Shown piece after piece: positions 3,647-55,921 of a DNA stretch of 57,174 bases. A model generated the notes under the pieces. It did no database searches and was not told the DNA's origin. It worked only from the letters and a program-made list of their open reading frames with translations. Position numbers and translations under genes: made by a program. Each line of letters begins with the position of its first letter. The stretch's first letter is position 1. This stretch comes from a virus. The stretch is taken from positions 1-57,174 of IMG/VR virus record IMGVR_UViG_3300047472_000206; one strand, given 5' to 3'.

Positions 3647-4372
3647 TCAGTTAAATTTGTGTTCGAGGTTGATCCGTGCCACCAGGGTCAACAGGTACTT
3701 TTGCGCCACACGGCATTTGTTGATCATTTTTTCTTCCAGCACCGCGTCACGCTGATAGGTGATGCTGGTCAGGCGCAGTGCCGGGTCGATGTGGTCGACC
3801 TCGTGCAGTTCGCGCTGCTCGTACCGGATCAGGTCTTCCGGCGTGCTGAGCATCACGAAGCACACCTCGTGCTCTGGCACGTCCCACAGCCGCATGTACG
3901 CGCGCCCTTGCCATTCGTAGAGCGGATCGTGGCAGTCGTCGCTCAGCGCCGGGAACGTGTCCAGATCCCAGGCGACCTTCGTGTCGATCGTCTTCACGCC
4001 CGGCACGTAGATGTCGCATTCGCCGGTCAGGAACTCGTCGGTGCGGCGCTCGGTATTCTTGGCGTAGCTCTTGAAGCGCAGGCGGTTGATCATCTCGATC
4101 GCCTCGTCCTCGCACGCCAGGCCTTTGTCCATGTATTTCGTCTCGACGACCTTGCTGTACGAGTAGACGAACTGCTTCGCCAGCTTGCCCAGGTAGGTCT
4201 TCGCGCCGGCCGACAGCGACATCTCCTTATATGGCGCCAGGGCCTCACGGTCGGAATCCGTCTTGCGGGCCTTGAGCGTCAGATGATGCAGATCGGCTGG
4301 CACGAGCGCGGGGTCTATCGACTGCGCATCCGTCATGATCAGGCCCAGCGAGGATGGATGAAATCTAAGCAC
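3647..4372 (-). CDS. Phage PD-(D/E)XK-type nuclease, probable partner of ERF
   Basis: Probably the exonuclease that resects DNA ends for the ERF annealing protein encoded just upstream. The core shows GECDIYVPG followed by TIDTKVAWDLDTFP, fitting the D-(x)n-(E/D)xK pattern of the PD-(D/E)XK superfamily, and YEWQGRAYM resembles the downstream Q-x-x-x-Y motif of YqaJ/RecB-like nucleases. The stated start is a GTG overlapping the erf stop; an ATG at 4336 is an alternative that would remove 12 residues. Exonuclease activity is inferred from motif and synteny. Confidence 0.78.
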   Translation of the reverse strand: MLRFHPSSLGLIMTDAQSIDPALVPADLHHLTLKARKTDSDREALAPYKEMSLSAGAKTYLGKLAKQFVYSYSKVVETKYMDKGLACEDEAIEMINRLRFKSYAKNTERRTDEFLTGECDIYVPGVKTIDTKVAWDLDTFPALSDDCHDPLYEWQGRAYMRLWDVPEHEVCFVMLSTPEDLIRYEQRELHEVDHIDPALRLTSITYQRDAVLEEKMINKCRVAQKYLLTLVARINLEHKFN

Positions 4373-5111
4373 GGGCCACCTCGTCGTGGACCTGGGTCAG
4401 CTGGTCGTCGGTCAGCACGTATTCGGCCTTCAGGCGCTCGATGGTGAATTCCTTATTGCGGATGGAGGCGATGGCGCTGGCCAGGCCATTGGCGCCGATG
4501 GCCCTGCGCTGCTTCGGCGCGGCGGGCGCCTGTTCTTGTTCGCCGCCGCGGCCGTCATCGTCCATATCCTTGGTGGCCAGGCCGCAGGCGCCCAACAGCG
4601 TATAGCGCTGCAGGTAGGTGACCGTGCTGGCGATCTGCTGGATGACGTTCTTCTTGCCGGAGTTGTCCGGCGGCGCCTCCATGGTGGTGGACTTACTGTG
4701 GCCCAGCACGTGCGTGAGCGTGCAGCTGACGATGATCATGCCGCTGGCCGGCTGCTGCGTATCCCAGTCGTGGCTGATGCCATGGCGCGCCAGCGCTTCG
4801 ATGACGACGTCACAGATGCCGCCCAGCGTCGCGTGGTTGTAGTTCGTGCCGGAGAACGAGACGTTTTTATCCTTGAGGATCGTCGGCGCGCGCTTCTTGA
4901 AGTCGGCCATCGCGGCGACGAAGGCCATGCGGGCCTTATTCGCGTTGTCACGCTCCTGCAACTCCATCAGCTTTTCCAGGCGGTCCAGGTCAGCGCCGCT
5001 GTCCAGCGCGTAGCGCAGCAGGTCGGCCGGGCCCACGGTGGTCATGCCGGCCTGGGCTGCCACAGCGATAGCCTGCTTCGGTGCCTGCTCCATTTCGATT
5101 ACGTCGCTCAT
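4365..5111 (-). CDS. erf: ERF-family single-strand annealing recombinase, 248 aa
   Basis: ERF proteins anneal complementary ssDNA and drive phage recombination. Family features are SFSGTNYNHATLGGICDVV (about residues 84-105), the GMIIVSCTLTHVLGHS segment and QQIASTVTYLQRYTLLGACGLAT. This is the typical ERF core, followed by an Asp/Gly-rich linker and a C-terminal tail starting near residue 200. It lies between tiny early genes and the nuclease gene, overlapping the former by four bases (ATGA). ERF, nuclease, SSB and RdgC together form a complete recombination cluster. Confidence 0.93.
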   Translation of the reverse strand: MSDVIEMEQAPKQAIAVAAQAGMTTVGPADLLRYALDSGADLDRLEKLMELQERDNANKARMAFVAAMADFKKRAPTILKDKNVSFSGTNYNHATLGGICDVVIEALARHGISHDWDTQQPASGMIIVSCTLTHVLGHSKSTTMEAPPDNSGKKNVIQQIASTVTYLQRYTLLGACGLATKDMDDDGRGGEQEQAPAAPKQRRAIGANGLASAIASIRNKEFTIERLKAEYVLTDDQLTQVHDEVARA

Positions 5112-5533: not shown

Positions 5534-5724
5534 GTCGATCTCCTCGTTATGTTCTGGCGCCCCTGCGGGCAATCTGGACCGGCTTTTCACCGGATCGGGG
5601 CTTTGACGATGTCCCTCATCGTGTGGCGGTCGGGCTACTTTCACTTTTTACAGATGAAGCGCAGGTGATATCGGCCTACGGCTTTCCGGAGCGGGTGCTA
5701 CCCGGTCAGATCCAGTCATGCGAC
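5534..5724 (-). other. Non-coding leader with hairpins
   Basis: No convincing reading frame on either strand. Short inverted repeats are present, for example ACGATG/CATCGT around 5606-5622 and CCGG arms around 5579-5593. It lies downstream of the tRNA-like element and upstream of the tiny-gene chain in the leftward transcript, so it is probably untranslated leader or processing RNA. Confidence 0.4.
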
Positions 5725-5812
5725 AACCACACAGCAAGGGGCTGGTGTCGAACCAGCTATCACGCTGCATTTCTGCAGTGGCGTACCTCCTGCCTACCCT
5801 TGCTGTGTGGTT
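5725..5812 (-). ncRNA. tRNA-like structured element with tetraloop in place of anticodon
   Basis: Read on the minus strand, 5804-5812 and 5797-5803 pair perfectly with 5725-5733 and 5734-5740, a 16-bp terminal stem. Inside, in order, come TA, a 3-bp stem GGC/GCC with a loop containing GG, a 5-bp arm CTGCA/TGCAG closed by GAAA, a 7-base spacer, and a 5-bp arm GCTGG/CCAGC with a seven-base loop TTCGACA. The last is a tRNA T-arm except for its final loop base. From acceptor to acceptor it is 70 nt, close to tRNA size. There is no anticodon loop and no CCA. Its existence as RNA is an inference; the pairing is seen directly. Confidence 0.55.
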
Positions 5813-5843
5813 CCTGCGCTCACCTGGCGCAGGGCAGGGCGGA

Positions 5844-6086
5844 TCAAGCCGCGATATTCTTTTCGACGTAATCGATCGCCTGTGCGACGGTTTTGATCTG
5901 ATCAGCGTCCTCGTCCGAGATCTGGATTTCAAATTCATCTTCGATGGCCATGACCAGCTCGACCGTGTCCAGCGAGTCGGCGCCAAGGTCGTCAACGAAC
6001 GCCCATTCGGTCTTGATGTCCGCCTGAGTGACGCCCAGCTGTACAGCGACTACTTTTTTGACACGCTGCTCGATCCCGTTTTCCAT
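5844..6086 (-). CDS. acpP: Acyl carrier protein, phage-borne, 80 aa
   Basis: Carries fatty-acyl intermediates on a 4'-phosphopantetheine arm. The sequence matches bacterial AcpP along its whole length. The [20 protein letters not shown] segment holds the conserved DSL serine (residue 38) to which the arm is attached, and the acidic helix II follows. At 80 aa it has the normal length. It sits inside the left early operon between small phage genes, with no fatty-acid genes nearby, so it is a phage-carried copy that would depend on the host phosphopantetheinyl transferase. Its role is unknown; it may redirect lipid or acyl-dependent metabolism, or modify a phage protein. Confidence 0.95.

Positions 6087-54405: not shown

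Positions 54406-55921
<1,516 letters not shown>

Follow-up and report, generated by a model that had tools for sequence, protein, structure and literature searches.

The DNA analysed here (the window) comprises positions 1 to 57,174 of the IMG/VR virus record IMGVR_UViG_3300047472_000206 and is taken to be a prophage, since an IMP dehydrogenase gene at 54461-55921, found among ten window proteins scanned in Pfam, looks like host flank. Between an acpP-like gene and the gene of an Erf-family single-strand annealing protein, all on the same strand as a sequence-only reading of the window had described them, the leader of the phage's early (recombination) operon contains, at 5725-5812, a unit of structured noncoding RNA. 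The upstream gene, which belongs to the early operon, is a phage-borne acyl carrier protein gene, and another viral contig (L002) has one that is 65% identical to it. Judged by the Erf protein (76%), the nearest prophage is that of Janthinobacterium sp. ROICE36 (L075), which keeps GCGCAGGAACCACACAG and a long stem at the same place in its leader and has a different interior; it is this comparison that first indicated a replaceable interior, hereafter the payload. The features of the locus are as follows.

5844-6086, minus strand: acpP-like gene, upstream, in the same operon direction.
5813-5833, minus strand: handle hairpin H1, CCTGCGC-CAGGTGA-GCGCAGG, upstream of the stem; it adjoins type-1 elements.
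5725-5812, minus strand: RNA unit 1 (payload in handle), a complete element of tRNA topology (RNAfold; match to covariance model R2).
5797-5812, minus strand: 5' arm of the 16-bp stem, made of the handle sequence AACCACACA (segment A) and the inner GCAAGGG (perfect inverted repeat).
5795-5796, minus strand: 2-nt linker (TA) ahead of the 5' hairpin.
5780-5794, minus strand: 5' (D-like) hairpin GGC-AGGAGGTAC-GCC, of 3 bp only; its position matches that of a covarying 5-bp hairpin in 27 of 27 relatives.
5765-5778, minus strand: central domain, the hairpin CTGCA-GAAA-TGCAG in the place of the anticodon arm, corresponding to the variable domain of the family (RNAfold).
5741-5757, minus strand: 3' (T-like) hairpin GCTGG-TTCGACA-CCAGC, flush with the stem (RNAfold; family comparison).
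5725-5740, minus strand: 3' arm of the 16-bp stem, CCCTTGC followed by TGTGTGGTT (perfect inverted repeat).
5721-5730, minus strand: 3' part of segment B, GTGGTTGTCG, which as read from the letters can pair with segment A (unit 1) or segment C (unit 2).
5623-5632, minus strand: segment C, CGACCGCCAC, the 3' end of a putative unit 2, complementary to B at 9 of 10 positions including one G-U.
5555-5601, minus strand: 3' module GCCCCG...GGGGCGCCA, tRNA-like with a T-arm in relatives and degenerate in the window.
4365-5111, minus strand: Erf-family single-strand annealing protein gene, downstream.

Read from 5812 to 5725 on the minus strand, the element runs AACCACACAGCAAGGG-TA-GGC-AGGAGGTAC-GCC-A-CTGCA-GAAA-TGCAG-CGTGATA-GCTGG-TTCGACA-CCAGC-CCCTTGCTGTGTGGTT. 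The terminal 16-bp stem and the D-like, GAAA-capped and T-like arms described in the sequence-only reading are all present where it had placed them, both in the sequence and in the minimum free energy structure computed by RNAfold, which is identical to the proposed fold (-47.9 kcal/mol, z -6.1, none of 200 shuffles equally stable). The stem is the sole perfect 16-bp inverted repeat among those listed for positions 1-24000 of the window, with 56 nt between its arms. The plus strand of the same interval is of comparable stability (z -6.6) and, because any inverted repeat folds well both ways, the strand is not set by fold energy alone. The D-like loop does contain the GG pointed out earlier, which had captured only part of a fuller A14/R15/G18/G19/A21 pattern in AGGAGGTA; this loop and the T-loop TTCGACA match the elbow-type consensus as sequences, the tertiary contact between them being predicted. 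The 16-bp stem is followed by more structure and not by a U-tract, and the reading as an intrinsic terminator was dropped on that ground.

ARAGORN calls neither a tRNA nor a tmRNA at the element, and an Rfam scan of the window returns no match at the gathering threshold. When the threshold is lowered, the tRNA-Sec model aligns end to end with 20.5 bits (E 0.09, cutoff 47), the best score within the tRNA clan. An ordinary tRNA gene was therefore rejected, given the ARAGORN result, the sub-cutoff Rfam score and a GAAA tetraloop instead of a 7-nt anticodon loop. At the elements of the family loci scanned, the tRNA-derived payload of one locus (L159) is the only one with an Rfam match.

Relatives of the window payload (family F1) were recruited with the pattern AGCTGG-N5..9-CCAGCCCCTTGC, which occurs in 37 viral contigs, about three quarters of which have GCAAGGG upstream and a further outer stem of 8-12 bp and varying sequence. 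The layout is constant: an outer stem, the inner stem GCAAGGG/CCCTTGC (common to about 25 viral elements), a 2-nt linker (present in 27 of 27 relatives), then a hairpin of 5 bp, the central domain and, directly abutting the stem, a 3' hairpin whose GCTGG/CCAGC pairing is common within the family and has double changes at two pairs. The central domain ranges in these relatives from a 13-nt loop or about 30 nt up to more than 100 nt. The 5' hairpin, of 5 bp in most relatives, covaries, with 92% of cells paired versus 69% after shuffling (1/2000), and among 23 aligned members both partners vary at 19 of 26 pairs, with 93.1% of cells paired versus 83.2% in shuffled alignments (0 of 500 shuffles). 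Compensatory change, named earlier as the check on the proposed fold, is thus what the relatives' alignments display in the outer stem and in the 5' hairpin.

A covariance model built from these 23 other phage elements, with the window left out (R2), matches the window element with 54.5 bits (E 1.5e-11); the match is partly circular, as the motif used for recruitment was derived from parts of the window element itself, its 3' hairpin and its inner stem, whereas the outer stem and the 5' hairpin were absent from that motif. The window follows the layout rules of the family, with the 2-nt linker preceding a hairpin and the 3' hairpin flush with the stem, and is the smallest member found, its central domain being just the GAAA hairpin. 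It departs from the family in its 5' hairpin, which has 3 bp and the AGGAGGTAC loop in place of 5 bp and a loop of the GAAAGCAGA type. Most F1 relatives have the loops GAAAGCAGA and AGTAGCGC and no D- or T-loop sequences; three of them (L192, L147 and L140) combine a GG-containing 5' loop with a (U/A)UC(G/A)A 3' loop, as the window does, and because they too differ at this place the GAAAGCAGA-type loop is not a constant of the family. The T-loop of the window could be a lineage-specific variant. No direct homologue of its 3-bp D-like stem and GAAA arm was found. A fixed D-loop/GNRA/T-loop pattern hit 10 contigs, none of which fits the model, and gave no close copy of the window payload, and the T-arm pattern GCTGGTTCGACNCCAGCCCC hit mostly ordinary tRNAs in viral contigs. 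The genome-wide model searches covered samples under strict filters, and R2 had zero matches over 369 genomes of the class, a set with no positive control among them. On balance, the window element very probably belongs to this conserved family of structured RNAs.

The outer part of the element has a distribution of its own. Hairpin H1 (with the counterpart CCCGCGC/GCGCGGG in L147 and L159) and the pair AACCACA/TGTGGTG form a handle, within which different folded payloads are found in other prophages, and searching with the handle brought up additional members, both in viral contigs and in the genus Janthinobacterium, where about a quarter of the 40 genomes searched have one. Behind GCGC(A/G)GGAAC(C/T)ACA there are 20 distinct payload sequences, each closed by at least 13 paired bases, which is the listing script's own threshold for closure, and a second (type 2) scaffold, GGCCAACA...TGTTGGCGGCC, carries further payloads. 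In three loci (L136, L137 and L138) the 60-nt flanks are 87-98% identical and the payloads 51-54% alike, against a mean of 51% for shuffled sequences; since near-identical flanks enclose payloads at shuffled-level similarity, payloads are exchanged whole as cassettes. Three variants of one payload type (F9) differ by compensatory changes inside the arms, at 6 pairs, so that selection acts on the payloads in their own right as folded RNA. Since many of the payloads found in this handle do not resemble tRNA, tRNA mimicry cannot be the general purpose of the handle.

Some payloads do resemble tRNA closely. A covariance model made from the single sequence of the window element (R1) has only two matches at E <= 1e-4 over 394 genomes, L159 and L158. 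The payload of L159 (type F2) exceeds the Rfam tRNA cutoff (34.8 bits, cutoff 29), has a 13-nt loop on its anticodon stem and recurs in three other loci (L152, L175 and L181); the letters of its D-arm are what we take to be tRNA-Glu-like. L158 is called tRNA-Arg by ARAGORN, with a long extended acceptor stem, and sits between a Q-like gene and what looks like a small terminase gene. When six tRNA-like elements are aligned to R1, 98.7% of pairs are kept and 20 of 29 pairs have double changes, in a set that includes one tRNA-Pro from outside the handle which may be an analogue only. This phage tRNA-Pro(TGG), at L018:10225-10315(+), lies in a tRNA cluster, has its acceptor stem extended to about 15 bp and no encoded CCA, and is an independent tRNA with paired leader and trailer.

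Further tRNA-like sequences occur in the 3' modules downstream. Those at L075:2011-2094, L139:3496-3579(-), L156:4547-4630 and L157:1341-1424(-) have a CCA and an 8-nt anticodon loop, in which ARAGORN reads the four-base anticodons CACT or AACT; placed immediately ahead of the next gene, they may be frameshift tRNAs or else processing signals of tRNA-like form. In L144, L149, L151 and L153 the 3' module, which sits close ahead of the following gene's ribosome-binding site, is called tRNA-His(GTG) by ARAGORN; its anticodon loop is unusually large.

The F1-family contigs have the element between a small upstream gene and genes of the Erf, RecT or exonuclease type, these neighbours being named by the look of their sequence and not by profile. 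In HK75 and HK620 the element follows pR' and precedes the holin gene, and members are found also in late leaders and in lytic phages. In ten loci (L186, L187, L189, L190, L193, L204, L205, L206, L208 and L214) the element is closely preceded by the gene of a recurring small protein, about 115-145 aa long (e.g. TPEQREDALDRLTRQNIAGITAALATGLPDTVTLIDEALGDYLQDDQARAEL), and the Rfam Betaproteobacteria-1 RNA (RF02932) lies within about 1 kb of the element at L154:4009-4125(-), L156:3337-3453(-) and L202:9294-9413(-). Searched with the leader of the window, named phages gave acpP or chance matches only. By eye, the same architecture with other stem sequences can be recognized in the Pseudomonas phages PotUPM1 and Persinger, where R2 matches are weak and partial, and phages phi297, AUS531phi and D14P have similarity in the central domain. 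In phi297 a hypothetical protein (phi297_00020, L220:2970-3227) is annotated across the RNA element, as is also the case in D14P; the gene call phi297_00020 is probably spurious.

Escherichia phage ep3, Klebsiella phage UPM 2146 and HK620 possess the downstream unit GTGGTGAATGCGCAGGCTGATGCGC...CCGGAGATCAGCACCGGCCACCACA; in HK75 that position is taken by a tRNA-like end, AGCTCAATGGCGAGCT...GCCGGTTCGATTCCGGCCGCCACA. A 281-nt query from ep3 matches 150 phage records, and 1,070 of 5,426 complete E. coli genomes are matched by a shorter one; both sets of matches are partial and often consist just of segment B and the hairpin region. Annotation under the match is absent in nearly all of those listed. 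The plasmids searched had no match. In UPM 2146 about 2.6 kb (L222:404-2400) without annotated genes contains, in addition to the A-B-C unit, several stretches that are tRNA-like or rich in hairpins. The hairpin loops of unit 2 (e.g. L222:1513-1605), AGGCTGAT and AGATCAGCA, are complementary over six bases and might contact each other where a tRNA has its elbow; the two loops are nearly invariant, leaving no covariation to read. The family is apparently large and uncatalogued, and no description of it was found in the open-access literature; it may have been published elsewhere.

What these comparisons show is a modular RNA family, selected for pairing, that swaps its payloads, resides in noncoding leaders and combines a tRNA outline with a free central domain. 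The view of the window element as a tRNA mimic holds insofar as its RNA structure is conserved, has tRNA topology and cannot decode, and has to be widened to a unit that is one member of such a family. Likewise, the GAAA tetraloop is there as the smallest version of the variable central domain, not as a specific replacement of the anticodon loop, and the 16-bp 'extended acceptor' owes its extension to a conserved handle that surrounds many unrelated payloads.

With regard to function, we consider it most plausible, with a probability of about 0.4, that the RNA is released from the mRNA and acts through its tRNA outline on factors that read tRNA shape. The conserved handle (H1 and outer stem) would hold an exchangeable payload, in which the stack of acceptor and T-arm and the D-like arm are retained and the anticodon domain is free to vary, here as a GAAA-capped hairpin. 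As a stable folded RNA, the unit would be cut out of the operon mRNA or be protected while still part of it; stacking of the outer stem on the T-like arm would give about 21 bp, a size that RNase III likes, and thus a plausible processing site for this enzyme. It counts against the mechanism that RNase P should be impeded by a 9-bp extension that is paired throughout. With its tRNA elbow and acceptor-like helix, the released RNA would be a target for host or defence factors that recognise the shape of a tRNA and not its anticodon, candidate readers being RNase P, RNase Z, modification enzymes and tRNA-binding immunity proteins; what each version is specific for would depend on its variable domain. 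The tRNA elbow is a known recognition site for several factors, among them RNase P, RNase Z and modification enzymes (PMC4810234).

The main rival is a cis-acting switch or processing element, in which segment B (CTGTGTGGT) pairs either with A, forming unit 1, or with C (CCRCCAC), forming unit 2, and so controls processing, termination or translation of the operon, the payloads being mere filler. Segments A, B and C recur together, as GTGGTG...CCACCACA in L190, ep3, UPM2146 and HK620, and a motif similar to segment C, CCGGCCRCCACA, occurs in relatives; unit 2 is laid out like unit 1, the modules stop immediately ahead of the following gene's ribosome-binding site, and in the type 2 scaffold B (TGTTGGCGGCCC) and C (GGGCCGCCAGCA) pair at 12 of 12 positions (one G-U). 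However, the predicted minimum free energy structure of 5541-5860 keeps A:B and does not form B:C, and an automatic search found a clear C with the GGCCRCCAC motif in part of the members only; by eye the arrangement is clear in several members. Moreover, the compensatory changes that F9 payloads possess on their own account are not expected of filler. Taken as a whole, the switch appears rather doubtful.

A second possibility is an immunity or antisense RNA of the P4 CI / P1 C4 type, a processed leader RNA with an exposed segment that would pair with complementary leader segments and end transcription, the handle setting the immunity group. In P4, segments seqA, seqB and seqC lie in the leader and the RNA matures by RNase P; the present family resembles this arrangement in that a single leader segment is complementary to two further ones, with repressor-like genes close by in several loci. 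Against this, a C4 match in Rfam is absent from all loci scanned, some carriers have protein repressors, and members reside in late leaders and in lytic phages, where such immunity is unexpected, all of which makes this explanation improbable. We regard with similar scepticism the idea of a decayed or hitch-hiking tRNA gene, that is, a phage tRNA captured in a hairpin and now non-functional. The tRNAs of L158 and L018, callable by ARAGORN and equipped with long extended acceptor stems, and the tRNA-Glu-like F2 payload would fit such an origin, but decay would break pairs, whereas all stems are intact and compensated over large divergence, and the inner stem and 3' hairpin of the window are common to family members that are not tRNA. 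Least likely is a DNA-level element (an origin hairpin, or an inverted repeat for recombination or transposition), for which the near-perfect inverted repeats and the exchange of payloads between conserved flanks near Erf/RecT genes could speak, given that the orientation is constant with the operon, that G-U pairs outnumber A.C mismatches by 14 to 3 on the operon strand, and that multibranched payloads with compensatory changes fit RNA.

If the shape-reading mechanism is followed further, one may venture, at somewhat unfavourable odds, that the elements constitute an undescribed class of phage RNA, widespread and built on a scaffold of tRNA topology, which bears within the conserved handle a cassette-swapped domain instead of the anticodon arm and engages or evades tRNA-reading host and defence factors, possibly with an A-B-C switch that joins two tandem units. 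A largely unannotated folded RNA with partial matches in about 150 phage records and 1,070 E. coli genomes would amount to a large blind spot of phage biology. Anti-defence genes are swapped in a similar way to these RNA domains in their constant handle, which suggests that the RNA faces a changing opponent; should the opponent indeed change, the family would be a candidate for RNA-based counter-defence. Its occurrence in the tractable coliphages HK75 (which grows on E. coli K-12) and HK620 makes expression, processing and knockout studies straightforward.

Several known RNAs invite comparison. The HK022 put RNA is about 70 nt long, has two stem-loops and lies just after PL or about 270 nt after PR (PMC9378689). 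Both it and the present element are structured RNAs within leader transcripts of lambdoid phages; the element is a multibranched unit that is found also after tR' in the late leader of HK75, and identity with put was rejected on size and place. The Pas / STnc100 prophage sRNAs, discovered in the case of the Pas RNAs through Hfq binding, are likewise intergenic in lambdoid prophages, some near Q (PMC13192938), and Pas RNAs end in an intrinsic terminator, whereas the window element has more structure behind it and no U-tract. The P4 CI and C4 antisense RNAs are leader RNAs with one segment complementary to two others, from which the family differs by the missing Rfam C4 match and by its presence also in late leaders and lytic phages. 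YrlA, a bacterial Y RNA whose partner is Ro60, has a tRNA-mimicking module closed by a long stem, an organization that the element shares without matching it in Rfam. With tRNA (RF00005) and tRNA-Sec (RF01852) the element has in common the stem, the 2-nt linker, the D-like arm, the T-like arm flush with the stem and the AGNNGGNA and TTCGA loops; it differs in having neither an anticodon loop nor CCA, in an acceptor extended to 16 bp and in scoring below cutoff. Finally, while the element is not detected as tmRNA by ARAGORN or Rfam, lacks CCA and has an extended stem, it shares with tmRNA the principle of a tRNA-like domain that carries another domain in the place of the anticodon arm.
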